Assembly: GCA_000155435.1 (NCBI GenBank)
Contig: DS990261.1
Coordinates: forward strand, 797,987-861,986
Reading direction: 5' to 3'
Origin: Clostridiales bacterium 1_7_47FAA
Lineage (GTDB): Bacteria > Bacillota > Clostridia > Lachnospirales > Lachnospiraceae
Length of the DNA stretch: 64,000 bases
In this document: piece by piece, positions 4,192-64,000 of the stretch
Layout: the number at the start of each line of letters is the position of its first letter
How positions within the stretch are numbered: position 1 is the first letter of the stretch
Program-made: the position numbers and the translations under genes
The notes under the pieces: model-generated
Told to the model about the DNA's origin: nothing
The model's input: only the letters and a program-made list of their open reading frames with translations
The model's database searches: none

Positions 4192-5499
4192 ATGTTTACT
4201 ACGGCAGTAAATGAATTAATGTATCTGTTTCTTTTTTTGCTTGCAGGTGTTGCGCTGCGCTCAGTGGTTAAGCCACTGCGTAAGCTGTACCTGCCGTCAG
4301 GCCTGATTGGCGGGGCGCTTGCATTGGTCATGGGACCGCAGGTACTGGGACTTATTAAAATCCCGGAAAACTGGTCCAGCATGGCGTCTCCGATGATTAA
4401 TATTGTATTGACAACAACCCTTTTCGGCATATCCATCAGCCTTTCAAAGATGAAGTCCTTTGCAGGGGCAATCAGTTCCAACCTGCTGTCTTATTTTTCA
4501 CAGCTTGCAGTCGGAATCCTGGCAGCATTGGGGCTTCAGAAGATATGGACAGGACTTCCGAGGGAATGGGGTGTCATGACGGTCTTTACCTACTGGGGCG
4601 GCCATGGGGCAGCAACCTCTTCGGGAACCCTGTTTGAAGAACTTGGGATAGAAGGGATGTTAAGTGTCGGGCTGATTCTTGCGACGCTGGGATTGATTGT
4701 TGCCATGGTGGTAGGAATGGTATGGGTTAACATCGGCGTCAGGAGGGGATGGGCAAGGGCATTGCCGGATGCCAAGAACAAGGAGGATGAAAGGAAGAAT
4801 GACTATATACCCAGGGATAAGCAGAAACCGCTGGGGCATGCAACCGTTGCTTCTGACTCCATTAATGGCCTGGCGCTGCAGATGTGTTTTGTATTCCTCA
4901 GCATGTGGATTGGAAGCGTGATTTTCGGTGCGGTTGCAAAAGCCATCCCGGCGGCCAGCAATATCCCATCCCTTCTGTATGGTATTGTAGGCGCAATCAT
5001 CGTATGGTTTGTGTTACGGAAAACCCACCTGGATCAATATGCCGATACGGACACCATAGACAATATTGGGGGAGTGGCCCTTGAAATCTGTATCTGTTCG
5101 GCAACAGCAACCCTGGATCTGAATTTTTTCGCAAACAATCTTGCGCCGATCATGATTCATATGCTGGTGGTAATCCTGCTCATGTCATTTGTGTGTATGG
5201 TCCTCATGCGCCGCTGGTTTGGTGAGGACTGGTTCCCGCTGGCATTGATGTTCTTCGGCGCGGGATGTGGGTCGACCCCGAGCGGGCTTGCTCTGGCACG
5301 CTGTGTGGATCCGGATGTTAAAACCGAAAGCTGGGAAGCGTTCGGAGTGGCCCAGGGATGTTTTGTCCCTGTCACATCCACCCTGGTTGCCATACTTCCG
5401 GTAATCGCAATCAACAACATCTGGATACTGGTAGGTATCGGGACCGCCATATCGGCAGCGATGATTGCATTCAATGAATTTATTGTCAGGAAGCCTTAA
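4192..5499 (+). CDS. GltS-type sodium/glutamate symporter family protein
   Basis: 435-residue integral membrane protein with about ten to twelve hydrophobic segments. The pattern is that of GltS: an N-terminal half with LPSGLIGGALALVMGP near residue 36 and a second half containing FFGAGCGSTPSGLALARC, the conserved glycine-rich re-entrant loop. The family couples Na+ to uptake of glutamate or similar dicarboxylates. A charged cytoplasmic linker at about 185-215 separates the halves. Ribosome binding site GGGGG precedes the ATG. Last gene of the operon; a terminator lies about 200 bases after it. Neighbouring hydroxy-acid enzymes suggest it imports a 4-hydroxy- or 2-oxo-dicarboxylate rather than glutamate, which is an inference. 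Confidence 0.88.
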   Translation: MFTTAVNELMYLFLFLLAGVALRSVVKPLRKLYLPSGLIGGALALVMGPQVLGLIKIPENWSSMASPMINIVLTTTLFGISISLSKMKSFAGAISSNLLSYFSQLAVGILAALGLQKIWTGLPREWGVMTVFTYWGGHGAATSSGTLFEELGIEGMLSVGLILATLGLIVAMVVGMVWVNIGVRRGWARALPDAKNKEDERKNDYIPRDKQKPLGHATVASDSINGLALQMCFVFLSMWIGSVIFGAVAKAIPAASNIPSLLYGIVGAIIVWFVLRKTHLDQYADTDTIDNIGGVALEICICSATATLDLNFFANNLAPIMIHMLVVILLMSFVCMVLMRRWFGEDWFPLALMFFGAGCGSTPSGLALARCVDPDVKTESWEAFGVAQGCFVPVTSTLVAILPVIAINNIWILVGIGTAISAAMIAFNEFIVRKP

Positions 5500-59156: not shown

Positions 59157-59182
59157 CCTGTAAAAATAACCTGCTAAGTTGT

Positions 59183-59231
59183 AAAATCAAGTGCGACAAG
59201 GGTTAATAACTCTATCGCACTTGATTTTTTA
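59183..59231 (+). terminator. Terminator 1 at the chromosomal/mobile boundary
   Basis: AAAATCAAGTGCGA (59183-59196) pairs with the complement at 59215-59228 around an 18-base loop, followed by T residues. Ends the kinase/GntR operon. Confidence 0.88.
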
Positions 59232-59244
59232 TTGTGGAAAATAT

Positions 59245-59289
59245 GAGTGCTACAAGAGAATTAAAAAAACTCTTGTAGCACTTTTTATT
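59245..59289. terminator. Terminator 2, related hairpin
   Basis: AGTGCTACAAGAG (59246-59258) pairs perfectly with 59270-59282, followed by T residues. Its left arm shares AGTGC-x-ACAAG with the left half of terminator 1, so the two hairpins may be related by duplication. Confidence 0.82.
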
Positions 59290-59321
59290 TTGCCAATTTT
59301 TAAGGAAAGGTGGGCGGAAAC

Positions 59322-59504
59322 GTGAAAAAAGGAGATAAGCGTATTACATACGCCGACAGACAGAAGATTGAAGCAATGGAGCGAACCGGGGCAAAGGTTA
59401 CAGATATTGCAAAGGCGGTTGGGTTTCACAGAGCAACGATTTATAACGAATTGAAGCGTGGGGGAACACCATACCGGGCAGAAGTAGCACAGAGAAGTTT
59501 ATAA
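59322..59504 (+). CDS. Small helix-turn-helix protein, IS30-type HTH
   Basis: About 60 residues. ITYADRQKIEAMERTGAKVT, then IAKAVGFHRATIYNELKRGG: the HTH_38 motif found at the N-terminus of IS30 transposases and in small phage or ICE proteins. No DDE domain follows, so it is not a transposase but either a remnant or, more likely, a small regulator of the element. Start assumed at GTG 59322, 7 bases after GGTGGG; GTG 59310 is possible. First gene of the mobile segment. Confidence 0.65.
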   Translation: MKKGDKRITYADRQKIEAMERTGAKVTDIAKAVGFHRATIYNELKRGGTPYRAEVAQRSL

Positions 59505-59539
59505 ATGCCAGGCGGCAGCAGTATAGAAAGGAACTCAAC

Positions 59540-59764
59540 ATGGAAGTGTGGATATTACGAGGGACAGACCCGGAAACATTGGAAGAAAAGATAAATAAGC
59601 AGTTGGAAGAGGTGGAAAAGGTAAAATCACTTTTCTATACGCCAACGGTTCAGTATCAAACGGCAGTAGTGCCGCAGATGCGAGGGGATAAGGTAACGGG
59701 TTACAAGGTGGAGTATTCAGCAATGGTTGCAGTAGAAGCAAAACCGTTATTCCGGGAAGCGTAG
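59540..59764 (+). CDS. Conserved small protein of the mobile element
   Basis: 74 residues, unrecognised. It starts MEVWILRGTDPETLEEKINK, has a helical, Glu/Lys-rich first half, and a second half of likely beta strands (GYKVEYSAMVAVEAKPLF). The start follows an AGAAAGGAACTCAAC cassette similar to those before other genes of this segment. It immediately precedes the methyltransferase gene. Confidence 0.6.
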   Translation: MEVWILRGTDPETLEEKINKQLEEVEKVKSLFYTPTVQYQTAVVPQMRGDKVTGYKVEYSAMVAVEAKPLFREA

Positions 59765-59774
59765 GTGGCAGCAG

Positions 59775-60791
59775 ATGAAAAGAAAATTAAAGGTTAATGA
59801 CTTCTTTTGTGGATGCGGCGGAATGGGTATTGCATTTAAAAATGCCGGGTATGAAATAGCCGGGGCATGGGACTTTGATAAATACGCCGTGGAGAGTTAC
59901 CGGGCAAACGTAGGGGACCATGTACAGAAAGCAGACATTAAGGAATTGCACCAAGCAGACATCCCACAAGCGGATGTGTGGGCGTTTGGTTTCCCGTGCC
60001 AGGATTTGAGCGTTGCCGGAAAGCAACGGGGCATGATTTTAAAATGCGAGGATTGCGGCGAGGAAATAGAGATAAACCCGGAAGAGTACACGGGCAACAC
60101 CATTTGCCCCAAGTGCAGCAGTAACAATTTTAAGGCGGCGAGCCGTAGCGGATGTTTCTTTGAAATGATGCGATTACTTGAAGAAACAGAGAGAGAGAGA
60201 GAACACGCCATGCCGGCCGTTATCATTGCGGAGAATGTGCGAGGGTTACGCCCGTATCTGCCAGTGTTACGCCTGGAATATGAACGCCACGGGTACACGG
60301 CACATATTGAAATGTTTAATTCCAAATATTGGAACGTGCCACAGAACCGGGACCGTTACGCAGTAGTAGGGACCAGAAATAAAAAGAACCTAACATTTAC
60401 ATTTCCGAAAGAGCAACACGAATTTGTACCGAAGTTATCGGATTACCTGGAAAAAGATGTGCCGGAAAAATATTACTTGCCGGATGAAAAGGCACAAACC
60501 ATTATAGCCCAGGCGTTAGAGAAACTAGAGGGTTTAGGAAAGTGCCATGCGTGCATTACGCCGGACCGTATCAACAAGCGGCAGAACGGACCGAGGGCAA
60601 AGGCAGAGGACGAGCCAATGTTTACACTTACCGCCCAGGATTTACACGGCGTTATCATCCTGGAAGATGAACAGACGGAAGAAAGCGTTGTTACGGACAT
60701 TGCAGAGGAAACCGGGCTTTTAGACCCTAACGGTTGCGGAAAAACATTACGAGTTGGGGGGGGGGGGCGGAAGCATCACAAAGAAACATAA
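59775..60791 (+). CDS. Cytosine-5 DNA methyltransferase, N-terminal part (frameshifted)
   Basis: 338 residues as read. C5-methyltransferase motifs: I (VNDFFCGCGGMGIAFKNAG), IV with catalytic Cys (GFPCQDLSVAGKQRG, about 74-88), VI (ENVRG), VIII (QNRDRYAVVGTR). A zinc-ribbon-like insert with two CxxC pairs (CEDCGEEI and CPKC, about 91-115) follows motif IV, common in phage enzymes. The frame ends in an unnatural tail after a run of 12 G at 60756-60767: removing one G (or adding two) restores a sensible continuation. Motifs IX-X are in the next frame (60988). Either phase-variable, truncated, or affected by homopolymer sequencing error. Confidence 0.85.
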   Translation: MKRKLKVNDFFCGCGGMGIAFKNAGYEIAGAWDFDKYAVESYRANVGDHVQKADIKELHQADIPQADVWAFGFPCQDLSVAGKQRGMILKCEDCGEEIEINPEEYTGNTICPKCSSNNFKAASRSGCFFEMMRLLEETEREREHAMPAVIIAENVRGLRPYLPVLRLEYERHGYTAHIEMFNSKYWNVPQNRDRYAVVGTRNKKNLTFTFPKEQHEFVPKLSDYLEKDVPEKYYLPDEKAQTIIAQALEKLEGLGKCHACITPDRINKRQNGPRAKAEDEPMFTLTAQDLHGVIILEDEQTEESVVTDIAEETGLLDPNGCGKTLRVGGGGRKHHKET

Positions 60792-61034
60792 CTACCAACA
60801 CGTTATTGTCAATCCAGGGGGGGGCAGAGAGCAACAGAGTTTCCCATAACGGTAACGGTCAATAAGTGCGGAAGAAATGTTTTAAAAATTGCGGATGTTT
60901 CCCCGTGCCTTACCGCAAGGGATTATAAAGGGTACGCCGGAAAGAAAGACATGATAGCAGTTATAGAAGAGCGAAAGGAACAAGACAATGGAAAGAGCCA
61001 ACAACCAGGGTTGCCAAATGGTGGGGATGCTTGA
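60792..61034 (+). pseudogene. Displaced middle part of the methyltransferase
   Basis: Not an independent gene. Just after the 12-G run the +1 frame reads HNYQHVIVNPG up to an 8-G run (60817-60824); after that the original frame reads EFPITVTVNKCGRNVLKIAD, then SPCLTARDYKGYAGKKDMIA, and ends at a TGA at 61032-61034. Both pieces resemble repeated target-recognition modules (LTAxDxxG) of phage methyltransferases. Changing both G runs by one base would join them to the N-terminal part. Confidence 0.7.
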
Positions 61035-61821
61035 CATAAAAGGTCAAGACCAATGCCGCCGGGTGTATTCAACGGACGGAATAGCACCAACCCTTACAAC
61101 ATCCGGGGGGGGGCAAAGGGAAGTGAAAATATTTGATACAAAGCGGTTGAGGGTGCGAAAGTTGACACCTAAAGAATACGGAATTTTACAAGCGTTCCCT
61201 ATGGACGATTGGAAACAAGTTGTTTCAGATAGCCAGGCATATAAACAATTTGGTAACGCAGTAACTACAACGGTTTTTACCGCAATAGCGGAAGAGATAG
61301 CAAAAAGCATTTATGCAGCAGAAGAAAGCGAGGAACAAAACATGGAAGCAGAAAACAAGAATTTTACCGGAATGAATGAACCGGAAGAGAAGCCAACGGC
61401 GGAAAGCATTTTGGCAGCAGCGGAAGCAGAAGCCAAGGTGGCAGCAGAACGGGAAGAAACAACTAAAACAGCAATTCCGGCAGAGGAAACCATAACACCG
61501 AACTCATTAGCCAACGGGATGTTGCAGTTTCTTCTTGATAGCGGAATTGTAGCGAGTGCGTGCGTAACGGATGAAACAGAAAAGATGTTTGCAAAGCACA
61601 TTAAAGAAGAATTGGACGGAATAACGATTGGGGAAACACCGGAGATATTGAGAGATTGGGAAGCGGCACAAAACGCCGTCAATGATATGCTTTCAAAATA
61701 TGCACCGGGCGGATATATGGGGAAAATCATTTATCCATTACTTATCCCATTAAAAGAGCGGTTGGAAGCCGGGGAAAGAACACCGGATTTATACAACGCC
61801 ATTGTAGAAGCCACAAGGTAG
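60988..61821 (+). CDS. Methyltransferase C-terminal part joined to a phage-type protein
   Basis: 277 residues. Residues 1-115 hold the methyltransferase end: VGMLDIKGQDQCRRVYSTDG, APTLTTSGGG (encoded by a 9-G run, 61105-61113), motif IX region RLRVRKLTPKEYGILQAFPM and motif X QFGNAVTTTVFTAIAEEIA. AAAGGAAC precedes the ATG at 60988, so it can be translated on its own, as in split enzymes such as M.AquI. From about 119 the frame continues into an unrelated Glu/Ala-rich part and a helical domain (SLANGMLQFLLDSGIVASAC). An internal ATG at 61342 with AGCGAGGAAC upstream could start that part separately. Confidence 0.78.
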   Translation: MERANNQGCQMVGMLDIKGQDQCRRVYSTDGIAPTLTTSGGGQREVKIFDTKRLRVRKLTPKEYGILQAFPMDDWKQVVSDSQAYKQFGNAVTTTVFTAIAEEIAKSIYAAEESEEQNMEAENKNFTGMNEPEEKPTAESILAAAEAEAKVAAEREETTKTAIPAEETITPNSLANGMLQFLLDSGIVASACVTDETEKMFAKHIKEELDGITIGETPEILRDWEAAQNAVNDMLSKYAPGGYMGKIIYPLLIPLKERLEAGERTPDLYNAIVEATR

Positions 61822-61830
61822 GTGCAGCGT

Positions 61831-62124
61831 ATGACATTAGCGGATATTGTGGCCGTTATGTCTGGCCCGGACCGTGTACGAATTACAAAAGGAAACAATG
61901 AACTATTTGCCGGATATTTGGGTAATTTGGTACACATGGCAGAATATGAAGCACTTATGGCGGAAGAGGTCACACGGATAAAAGGAACGGTGGACATAAC
62001 CCATAAAAGATATAAGGAATTAGGATTGATGCAGCCGTTACACCCGGAAGAAACACCAAATTACAGTTTTTCGGATTTGCAGTTGACTATATACCGGGAA
62101 ATCATATTGAAAAGTGAGGAATAA
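61831..62124 (+). CDS. Small protein of the mobile element, 97 residues
   Basis: Unrecognised. It starts MTLADIVAVMSGPDRVRITK and contains NNELFAGYLGNLVHM, a beta-rich pattern seen in small phage proteins of unknown function. AAGGTAGGTG precedes the ATG at 61831; the longer GTG start (61822) is less likely. 9 bases after the previous stop. Confidence 0.6.
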   Translation: MTLADIVAVMSGPDRVRITKGNNELFAGYLGNLVHMAEYEALMAEEVTRIKGTVDITHKRYKELGLMQPLHPEETPNYSFSDLQLTIYREIILKSEE

Positions 62125-62127
62125 GCC

Positions 62128-62283
62128 GTGGCAGAAATTGGAAAATTGGAAATTACCGTTTTGGATATGCCAAAAATCCAAAGGTTATTGAAGAGGTACG
62201 AGAAAATCCAAAGGCGGCGTGCCTGGAGAAATCACGCAAGGACAAAGAAAGTGAGGAATAACACATGGAAGAAAAAACAATGA
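62128..62283 (+). CDS. Small basic protein, 51 residues
   Basis: GTG start at 62128, 8-9 bases after GAGGA, 3 bases after the preceding stop. The protein begins MAEIGKLEITVLDM and turns strongly basic (PKIQRLLKRYEKI, QRRRAWRNHARTKK), ending in lysines. It overlaps the next gene by 19 bases. Composition suggests nucleic acid binding; no family recognised. Confidence 0.5.
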   Translation: MAEIGKLEITVLDMPKIQRLLKRYEKIQRRRAWRNHARTKKVRNNTWKKKQ

Positions 62284-62585
62284 TGCCTATTAACAATCAG
62301 ATTGAGCCGGATTTTTTAGAACACATCAAAAGCATCTTTAAGCGGTGGAGAGATTTAAACACCCAGGGCGTGACGATTGGGGCAAGGGAATTAAGTAATT
62401 TTGCCTTTACCTTAAAAGGTGCATCCATGAATAGCCATTTGGGATTTAAGTACAATTTCAACCCACGGGGAACGGATGCAGACGGAAACCCGGCAATCAC
62501 ATTAAAACTTTATACCAAACCGGAGCAGATGAACCCGGCAGCAGATAGGCCGGTATATGAATTTGCAGCCCCTTACATGGTTTAG
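62265..62585 (+). CDS. Hypothetical protein of the mobile element, 106 residues
   Basis: Unrecognised. Starts MEEKTMMPINNQIEPDFLEH, with IFKRWRDLNTQG and LGFKYNFNPRGTDADGN. AAAGTGAGGAATAACAC before the ATG is one of the shared start cassettes of this segment. Compact alpha/beta protein by pattern, no membrane segment. Confidence 0.6.
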   Translation: MEEKTMMPINNQIEPDFLEHIKSIFKRWRDLNTQGVTIGARELSNFAFTLKGASMNSHLGFKYNFNPRGTDADGNPAITLKLYTKPEQMNPAADRPVYEFAAPYMV

Positions 62586-62588
62586 GGT

Positions 62589-62627
62589 GCAGCAGTACAG
62601 AAAGCGAGGGAACACAACATGATGCAG
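62589..62627 (+). repeat. Start-site cassette, copy A
   Basis: GCAGCAGTACAGAAAGCGAG leads into GGAACACAACATGATGCAG. The 27 bases from 62601 to 62627 recur identically at 63915-63941, in each case carrying the ribosome binding site and first codons of a gene. Shorter relatives occur at about 59514-59542, 61324-61344 and 62250-62267. Confidence 0.8.
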
Positions 62628-62963
62628 AAATTAAAAGAAGAAATCACGGCAGCAGCCAACAGAGAATTAAACCGGGCAAATGAGCAATTCCCGTTATTTA
62701 CATCAAAACATGAGGGCGTGGCGGTTGCCTATGAGGAATTAGAAGAGAGCAAAGAAGCCCTTGAAGAGTTAGAAGCATCCTTTAAGTGCTTATGGGATGA
62801 TGTGAGAGGGAAAGAAACGCCTTGTTATCTGAAAGAAGAGATAACACCGCTTAAAATCGCAGATTACGCAATTAACCTTGCGTGCGAAGCCGTACAGACG
62901 GCCGCTATGCTTATGAAATATGAAATGAGCCTTAACCCGGCAGCAGAAAGAGAGGGCGAATAA
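62619..62963 (+). CDS. Hypothetical coiled-coil-like protein, 114 residues
   Basis: Helical, Glu-rich: AYEELEESKEALEELEASFK, then LKEEITPLKIADYAINLACE. No recognised family, but the layout resembles small phage or ICE proteins adjacent to DNA-modification genes. Its ATG lies in cassette A; ATG 62622 is an equal choice. Stop and next start overlap by one base. Confidence 0.6.
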   Translation: MMQKLKEEITAAANRELNRANEQFPLFTSKHEGVAVAYEELEESKEALEELEASFKCLWDDVRGKETPCYLKEEITPLKIADYAINLACEAVQTAAMLMKYEMSLNPAAEREGE

Positions 62964-63322
62964 TGGCAATATACGCAATTGATTTTGATAACACATTGGC
63001 TATTACCCGTTTCCCGGAAATTGTAGCCCCAAACAAAAAAATGGTTGCTTTTGCGAAAGCGGTAAAAGCCCAGGGACACCAAACAATATTGTGGACAAGC
63101 AGAGCCGGGGCAGACCTGGAAAATGCCGTGGAGTGGTGCAGATTGCAAGGGCTTGTATTTGATGCCGTGAATGAGCCGTTACCGGAGCAGATAAAGCGGT
63201 GGGGCAACGATACAAGAAAAATCTATGCGGATTATTACATAGACGATAAGAATATGACAATAGCCCAGGTGGAAAGCACCATGAACCAAATAAAAGAGAT
63301 TATGGAAGAAATAAAGGAGTGA
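62963..63322 (+). CDS. HAD-like hydrolase of the mobile element
   Basis: 119-residue small HAD-superfamily protein. Motif I is YAIDFDNTL (Asp 7 and 9), with the Thr/Ser motif II in ILWTSR (Thr/Ser about 45) and an acidic motif near YYIDDKN (about 92-98). No cap domain. Similar small HAD proteins occur in phages and conjugative elements, possibly as nucleotide or polynucleotide 5'-phosphatases; substrate unknown. Confidence 0.75.
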   Translation: MAIYAIDFDNTLAITRFPEIVAPNKKMVAFAKAVKAQGHQTILWTSRAGADLENAVEWCRLQGLVFDAVNEPLPEQIKRWGNDTRKIYADYYIDDKNMTIAQVESTMNQIKEIMEEIKE

Positions 63323-63326
63323 AATA

Positions 63327-63509
63327 ATGAAAATCAAAATTACAGATGTGTTACCTATTGTTAATCCGCCGGAAGTAGGGAGCGTACACACGGTTACAAG
63401 AAGAGAGACAGAACCACCAAGAAACAGACGCACGAAAATGTACTATATAGAAGTTGGTAAAAGGGAAATAGGGGTATATCCAAGAGAATGCAAAGTGATA
63501 GAAGAGTAG
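63327..63509 (+). CDS. Hypothetical small protein, 60 residues
   Basis: Unrecognised. Starts MKIKITDVLPIVNPPEVGSV and ends IGVYPRECKVIEE; two beta-hairpin-like halves with a basic centre (RRETEPPRNRRTK). Good ribosome binding site AAGGAG 9 bases before. Probably an accessory protein of the element. Confidence 0.6.
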   Translation: MKIKITDVLPIVNPPEVGSVHTVTRRETEPPRNRRTKMYYIEVGKREIGVYPRECKVIEE

Positions 63510-63526
63510 AAAGCGAGGATAAATAA

Positions 63527-63976
63527 ATGGGATTTATGGACAATTTTACATCAGATAGCCCGGTAACAGTAAAGCAGCCGGATTATTACGAAATGGTAAA
63601 GGAAGCAGCCAAAGCGGAGTTAATCACAAATGCGGTCAATGCGGAAGTGCCGGGGTATTACATCCAGGCAATGATTACCGGGAAAAAGCCGGATTTTCTT
63701 AATACCCTGGATGCAGAGGAAGAGAAAACCGGATTTAGAACGGAATATGAGCAGATAACCGGGGCGGCGGTATCAATATTTGAAACAATGACAAAGGAAA
63801 GAAGCATAGAAGCGGCAACCATTGGATTACACAAACTTATTAACGCCATAAGCCAAAGCCATATTGAGGAAATAAAAGCAATAGAGGAAAACCAAAAGGA
63901 AAGAGAGAAAGCGGAAAGCGAGGGAACACAACATGATGCAGACGGCAGCAGTACAGAAGATAAGCGAACAGAATAG
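63527..63976 (+). CDS. Hypothetical protein of the mobile element, 149 residues
   Basis: Unrecognised. GFMDNFTSDSPVTVKQPDYY at the start, a helical middle and a Glu/Lys-rich end. AGAAAGCGAGGATAAATAA before the ATG belongs to the same cassette family. Its last 44 bases overlap the next gene's start (63933), where cassette B doubles as coding sequence. Confidence 0.6.
   Translation: MGFMDNFTSDSPVTVKQPDYYEMVKEAAKAELITNAVNAEVPGYYIQAMITGKKPDFLNTLDAEEEKTGFRTEYEQITGAAVSIFETMTKERSIEAATIGLHKLINAISQSHIEEIKAIEENQKEREKAESEGTQHDADGSSTEDKRTE
63915..63941 (+). repeat. Start-site cassette, copy B
   Basis: The 27 bases are identical to 62601-62627. Here they lie inside the 3' end of the preceding gene and supply the ribosome binding site and start of the next one. 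GGCAGCAGTACAGAA, which precedes the cassette in copy A, follows it here (63944-63958). Confidence 0.8.
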
Positions 63977-64000
63977 CCTATATAAAGCAACATTAGACCG
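63933..64000 (+). CDS. Partial gene running off the right edge
   Basis: Opens with two Met codons at 63933 and reads MQTAAVQKISEQNSLYKATL with no stop before the window ends. GCGAGGGAAC upstream is the cassette ribosome binding site. Too short to identify. Confidence 0.5.
   Translation, partial: MMQTAAVQKISEQNSLYKATLD

Follow-up and report, generated by a model that had tools for sequence, protein, structure and literature searches.

A prophage-borne, split C5-cytosine methyltransferase whose reading frames may be set by poly-G tracts

The 64,000-nucleotide stretch of DNA analysed here, which we call the window, contains a cytosine methyltransferase gene with runs of 12, 8 and 9 G, and the question raised by this locus is whether these runs are lesions or whether their lengths govern what the gene encodes. 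A first-pass annotation had placed the runs within a split C5-cytosine methyltransferase, and this was borne out, each run lying exactly as given in Table 1. The Pfam profile PF00145 matches both parts of the gene, alpha with an E value of 1.3e-39 (best stretch, profile 2-83) and beta with one of 2.3e-12 (profile 253-323), and alpha carries the invariant FPCQ motif, with the PCQ of C5-cytosine methyltransferases. By family profile and PCQ motif, the gene is thus assigned to that class. Motifs I-VIII and IX-X do lie in separate ORFs, as had been proposed, and the frame entered behind the second run is indeed open to the stop predicted for it. The claim that all three runs sit in similar modules stood only in part: the first and third occupy an equivalent 'TL..GGG' loop, whereas the second marks the junction behind the first module. 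Behind the PCQ motif, alpha has a zinc-ribbon-like insert of the form CxxC...CPxC (window 60040-60135, residues about 90-120), which is missing from L015, a relative whose contig also bears L034. The beta extension that follows motif X (window 61321-61821) had no Pfam match of its own, and by eye it is acidic and similar in close relatives.

Table 1. Features of the methyltransferase locus, in window positions.
Feature	Position	Strand	Remarks
Left part of prophage of ~33 kb	59173..64000	+	C106 about 857159-890146; phage genes, flanking repeat
Small HTH_38 DNA-binding protein near left end of phage, upstream of methyltransferase	59310..59504	+	PF13936, E 1.5e-9
Alpha subunit, C5-cytosine methyltransferase, motifs I-VIII	59775..60791	+	338 aa at assembled tract length
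G12, first alpha tract, at recognition-loop position of K module	60756..60767	+
K module (GGSITKKHNYQHVIV)	60766..60810	+	Frame differs from that of alpha start; own-frame conservation in relatives
G8, second alpha tract, junction of K and V modules	60817..60824	+	Site of 150-bp cassette in relative L043
Open frame with V module (VNKCGRNVLKIADVSPCLTARDYKG...)	60825..61034	+	Alpha's frame; stop just beyond beta start
AAAGGA, likely ribosome-binding site of beta	60974..60979	+	8 nt upstream of beta ATG
Beta subunit, 277 aa: last recognition module, motifs IX-X, C-terminal extension of ~165 aa	60988..61821	+
Bn recognition module (GMLDIKGQDQCRRVYSTDGIAPTLTTS)	61024..61104	+	Counterpart of M.HhaI 234-254 via relative L034
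G9, beta tract	61105..61113	+	Counterpart of M.HhaI Gly255-Gly257; in frame as assembled
Methyltransferase motifs IX-X	61114..61320	+

The two sets of motifs are predicted on separate polypeptides with a start of their own each, a layout shared with M.AquI, which the excerpt of PMC3404938 describes as a C5-methyltransferase of two polypeptides. In 18 of 19 genes examined (the window counted) the beta module has upstream start codons, by eye often behind a purine-rich stretch; the one gene not found by the pattern used, L126, is an exception in which the module continues in alpha's frame up to the tract. In L032 the two parts overlap, and no tract lies where they are split. Together with the beta ATG and AAAGGA of the window, these observations bear out the earlier proposal of a natural two-subunit layout, and from the sequences we regard the split as natural and M.AquI-like. 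The prophage gene differs from M.AquI in its phage location, its poly-G tracts and its several optional cassettes. We infer that alpha and beta associate into an active enzyme.

The mobile element to which the gene had been ascribed proved to be a prophage, of which the methyltransferase gene forms the left end. It has genes for a phage replication protein, ParA/ParB, terminase, portal, head, tail, holin and endolysin, as well as an IS30-like DDE transposase, and it is flanked by a direct repeat of 15-16 bp, with CTGTAAAAATAACCT(G) at both ends and the left copy starting from 59158. No HsdS, HsdM or HsdR was found in the 29 phage-region ORFs scanned (9 of window 59310-63976 and 20 of L022/L023), and one HNH endonuclease was found among them with PHROGs. 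The prophage also carries a diversity-generating retroelement with Avd and reverse transcriptase (L023:8662-10444), and would thus have two separate ways of varying itself. A second poly-G gene lies in the same prophage, a small gene split by a G tract (L159:445-977, C106 ~888.4-889.0 kb) that is intact with other tract lengths at L043:50-595 and L038:3934-4452; no Pfam family was found for it and its PHROG matches were weak.

The ends of the element deserve separate mention. Where the ends are joined, in three free phage contigs, they make up TTGACA-N18-TAAAAT, which faces the HTH and methyltransferase genes (L043:1732-1761, L038:5611-5640 and L011:2411-2440), and the prophage keeps the TTGACA and TAAAAT halves apart (window 59158-59200 and L159 2130-2165); the sequence was absent upstream of the other 12 genes inspected. 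Circularisation may switch on these genes. A host promoter-like sequence, TTGACA...TAAAGT, lies directly downstream of the prophage (L159 2148-2200). The prophage, which has an IS30-like transposase and a repeat of 15-16 bp, resembles in this position the TnGBS-type elements, which target sites upstream of promoters. About 2.4 kb to the right of the prophage end, outside the phage, the host-side gene L023:17507-18502 matches PF13536 (transporter; putative multidrug efflux), a family match only.

How unusual are the G runs themselves? They are the sole G/C runs of at least 7 in the 64 kb window, where the numbers of G runs drop steeply with length, from 298 of 4 G to 84 of 5, 10 of 6 and none of 7. 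Those of 8, 9 and 12 G all lie inside the methyltransferase gene. By a dinucleotide (Markov) model, 7.8 runs of at least 8 G would be expected in the whole window, against three observed, so that the bare number of such runs is not remarkable on this basis; for the gene alone the model gives 0.13. Since the window model allows several such runs, the bare count proves nothing, and what counts is the placement of the tracts and their behaviour in relatives. Over 23 genes (the window and 22 relatives), 38 G/C runs of at least 7 lie in 34,806 bp of gene as compared with 6 in 259,364 bp of flank (Fisher p 2e-29, for members that are related and hence not independent). The whole 6.55 Mb genome, on both strands, has 16 distinct runs of at least 9 G by our own count, merged from 40 overlapping matches: two in the methyltransferase gene, one elsewhere in the same prophage and 13 outside the prophage. 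Some of those outside it (e.g. at L160, L163 and L166 of G000) are within long open frames, with two such runs at L160 in frames of 355 and 924 codons, and it is possible, to judge by these frames, that they mark phase-variable loci.

Relatives of the gene are mostly viral contigs. Surveys of genomes yielded few: a DNA search of 98 relatives gave five with a match, one of them the own genome and the rest short and weak, and protein searches returned the own genome only in both 397 genomes of the family and 17 of the genus, three matches (own included) in 392 genomes of the order and two in 138 genomes of the genus of G611. A scan of genome contigs gave two loci, no relative was found on plasmids, and two further scans of viral collections gave no new close contig. 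In the viral collection the beta-type pattern TL-x-x-x-G8 occurs in six contigs, each a member of this methyltransferase family, and a scan for KKHNYQH picked out ten contigs, four of them known members (L120, L121, L129 and L131) and six with no methyltransferase match by tblastn. More distant or partial sequences (L016-L018, L035-L037, L039, L053, L057 and L058-L063) were kept outside the 23-gene set. Within that set, 17 genes have G/C tracts of at least 7 and six have none. Further tract sites occur at motif I in L031, L033, L032 and L055, and as a C11 between modules in L135.

The evidence that the tracts vary comes from gene alignments of eight pairs. L009 and L043 differ by 18 substitutions over 1680 aligned bases, and all their indels are at tracts: the first differs by 1 nt and the beta tract by 2 nt, and at the second a cassette of 150 bp, in L043, stands between two G tracts. 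L009 and L011 differ by 46 substitutions and by indels at tracts only, one of these being an A adjoining the second tract; L011 and L043 have their internal indels at or adjoining tracts. L009, L011 and L043 are one lineage, to be counted once. In the comparison of the window with L025, with 256 substitutions in 1534, internal indels are confined to the three tract sites, and those between L029 and L030 are likewise confined to tracts. In five of the eight pairs, then, close relatives differ in tract length while the remainder stays in frame, and the other three differ by cassettes or a deletion: the middle part is exchanged between the window and L042, L033 has large extra cassettes against L031, which appear as cassette-sized gaps, and L049 has a 31-bp deletion relative to L047, both genes being tract-less. 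In L044 the frame is broken near 4890, where there is no tract. The tract lies inside the reading frame and its length sets the frame, as in a poly-G phase-variable gene, and the comparison with homologous elements therefore supports the suggestion of poly-G-driven variation, tract lengths differing between close relatives.

The beta tract lies in what is likely to be the DNA-recognition loop of the enzyme. M.HhaI is a monomer with one recognition domain and no tract, and its fold and recognition loops appear to be common to the prophage enzyme family. The relative L034, which has a single ORF, aligned to M.HhaI at E 1.3e-32, and via L034 the beta module corresponds to HhaI 234-257, a stretch that we take to be part of the DNA-recognition loop, with the poly-G at the glycines listed in Table 1. 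The first alpha tract of the window has the same TL..GGGG position, in the K module. The tract-less L047 writes those glycines GGA GGA GGC, so the protein needs no tract. Thirteen genes have a run of at least 6 G at the beta site, and five of these read in frame into motifs IX-X (the window, L042, L043, L030 and L026) and eight out of frame (L025, L009, L011, L038, L029, L007, L055 and L126). Since the beta tract reads into motifs IX-X in one frame of three, it would serve as an on/off switch. An AlphaFold2 model of L054 was good in its catalytic part, and Foldseek placed M.HhaI among its top matches, but in the module region (residues 247-377) pLDDT was below 50; the cassettes thus have no structural support from the model, and no claim here rests on it.

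Fifteen genes have a tract that precedes alpha cassettes; in nine of them the cassette reached from it changes with the frame, and by eye L045 looks like a tenth. In L009 the frames reach K, N or V, and in L007, L025 and L038 an early stop, K or V. In the window they reach an early stop, K, or no cassette, V being reached solely past the second tract, which makes the window a two-step version of the scheme; with a stop in the frame beside its K module, it has no clean three-way choice at the first tract. As assembled, the first tract reads into a following cassette in three of the 15 genes, namely L009, L030 and, judged by eye, L045; the remaining 12 reach none. The earlier proposal that single-base changes would restore a continuous alpha was correct in that the breaks lie at the tracts, but found no support in the form given: the first tract is more than a site of damage to one alpha frame, since the cassettes of relatives follow it in different frames. 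Tract length would for the same reason give different alpha ends. A fixed -1 frameshift joining the offset cassettes was considered and dropped, as there is often no tract after K (L007, L025, L038 and L031) and the next frame is open already from the first tract instead.

The cassettes bear marks of use as protein. For the K module the ratio of synonymous to nonsynonymous changes is 156:139 in its own frame vs 33:238 and 30:238 in the other two, and the own-frame ratios are 92:26 for N, 78:45 for V, 640:465 for Bn and 348:114 for Bc. These counts (12, 5, 5, 12 and 10 of the 23 genes entered for K, N, V, Bn and Bc; misfits in pattern or length, such as the window for K, were dropped) show synonymous changes outnumbering nonsynonymous ones in the own frame of each module alone, which indicates conservation as protein in that frame. 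Of 12 cases evaluated, with L055 frame 1 set aside for want of a cassette, nine have a second frame that stays open as far as its cassette; in the window, L055 and L047 a stop closes it, in the first two of these beside the K module. Synonymous recodings keep the second frame open just 1.3-6.8% of the time in four cases, which are overlaps with the N module, and for short K overlaps an open frame by chance is common, at 18-41%. Several sequence modules lie between motifs VIII and IX, and from the single-ORF relatives, which have one module there (Bn-type only in L034, N-type only in L035), and from the HhaI alignment each would recognise DNA. The same relatives suggest that a Bn-type or an N-type module alone could suffice as recognition domain. 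The window's alpha and beta as assembled amount to motifs I-X plus one recognition module, the same content as single-ORF L034. By the example of L034 and L035, the window as assembled is thus likely to make an active enzyme, one that is probably on and has one recognition module.

The reading that we favour, and hold with some confidence, is that the window carries a prophage-borne, naturally two-subunit, M.AquI-like C5-methyltransferase whose frames are set by poly-G, with beta switched on or off and alpha subject to a choice of specificity. Slipped-strand slippage of the DNA would alter tract lengths in the phage population. Alpha would supply motifs I-VIII. Beta, with a ribosome site and start of its own, would add motifs IX-X and a single recognition module, and the length of its tract would turn the enzyme on or off. 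The length of the first alpha tract modulo three would decide between an early alpha end, which with beta should still be active, and one or other cassette beside the beta module. If each cassette is a target-recognition domain, the choice of alpha end would be a choice of methylation specificity, and tracts at cassette borders could double as sites of cassette gain and loss. The purpose would probably be to shield phage DNA variably from the differing restriction systems of hosts; the abstract of PMC4190342 reports that lactococcal phages have adenine methyltransferases which protect in this way. We put forward more tentatively, as plausible but somewhat short of probable, a general frame selector in which a homopolymer in the recognition loop precedes overlapping cassettes in two to three frames, its length modulo three picks the cassette, and a tract in the partner subunit gives on/off control.

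The alternative that survives best, though we think it unlikely, is a plain on/off phase-variable methyltransferase in which the additional frames past the alpha tract would be functionless remnants. It accommodates the beta tract, with its five genes in frame and eight out (n=13), the 12 of 15 assembled first alpha tracts that reach no cassette, and the separate motif I tract, which is in frame in L031 and L033 and out in L032 and L055. Remnants, however, would not be conserved as protein in mutually offset frames, as K, N and V are, and the recurrence of the N module in the single-frame relatives L035 and L044 also argues against this explanation. Runs of 8-12 G could, in addition, permit transcriptional or ribosomal slippage, so that one DNA length would give mixed alpha ends in each cell. 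Such slippage would suit the offset-frame modules, but we consider it improbable as the explanation, the tract length differing between relatives that are 97-99% identical, which fits slippage at the DNA level. Least probable of all, at a very low level, is that the tract breaks are sequencing or assembly errors or decay of a prophage gene: homopolymers are error-prone in sequencing, other breaks occur in L049 and L044 and the element is integrated, yet the tracts are at homologous sites in separate assemblies, the Roseburia phage Shimadzu included, the closest pairs have their indels at tracts, the coding parts compared have a synonymous excess, and the existence of the tract, beyond its length, would be left to explain. 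Assembly error in particular is an unlikely source of the breaks, as judged from these comparisons.

Parts of this arrangement have precedents. According to PMC9577141 and PMC6789123, when the poly-G tract in hsdS1 of the Type I system NgoAV changes, so do the specificity polypeptide and the motif that is methylated. The prophage gene is like NgoAV, so described, in that a poly-G tract affects specificity; NgoAV, however, involves a Type I HsdS, N6-adenine and a truncated or fused subunit, whereas the prophage gene would choose between cassettes in several frames. The pair orf41/orf42 of the Roseburia phage Shimadzu has an alpha that is 62.7% identical, the same split, and G8 and G10 at equivalent sites; the pair is annotated as two methyltransferase genes, with no tract mentioned in the annotated features of the stretch. 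C5-methyltransferases of Bacillus phages (phi3T, SPR and H2) have several recognition domains in a variable region, in one frame and active together. The phi3T enzyme is a distant match (34.6%), and these enzymes are also phage-borne and multi-domain, but the offset frames of the prophage gene would make its cassettes alternatives; the relative L044 likewise has its modules in one frame. Both poly-G specificity switching (NgoAV) and split C5 enzymes (M.AquI) are thus already known from the excerpts cited. A phage methyltransferase with modules selected by poly-G was not found among the titles and abstract openings that searches of an open-access library listed, and within that material the combination of offset-frame cassettes behind a tract inside the recognition loop appears to be new.

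Most known cases of phase-variable methylation come from restriction-modification systems of bacteria, and the methyltransferases of phages are as a rule regarded as fixed protection. If the frame selector exists as proposed, a single short gene could provide a phage population with several patterns of methylation, and the tracts could take up further cassettes. Homopolymer slippage that re-rolls methylation would let a phage answer directly the restriction of diverse or switching hosts, and the cassettes would offer small natural material for the study of C5-methyltransferase specificity.
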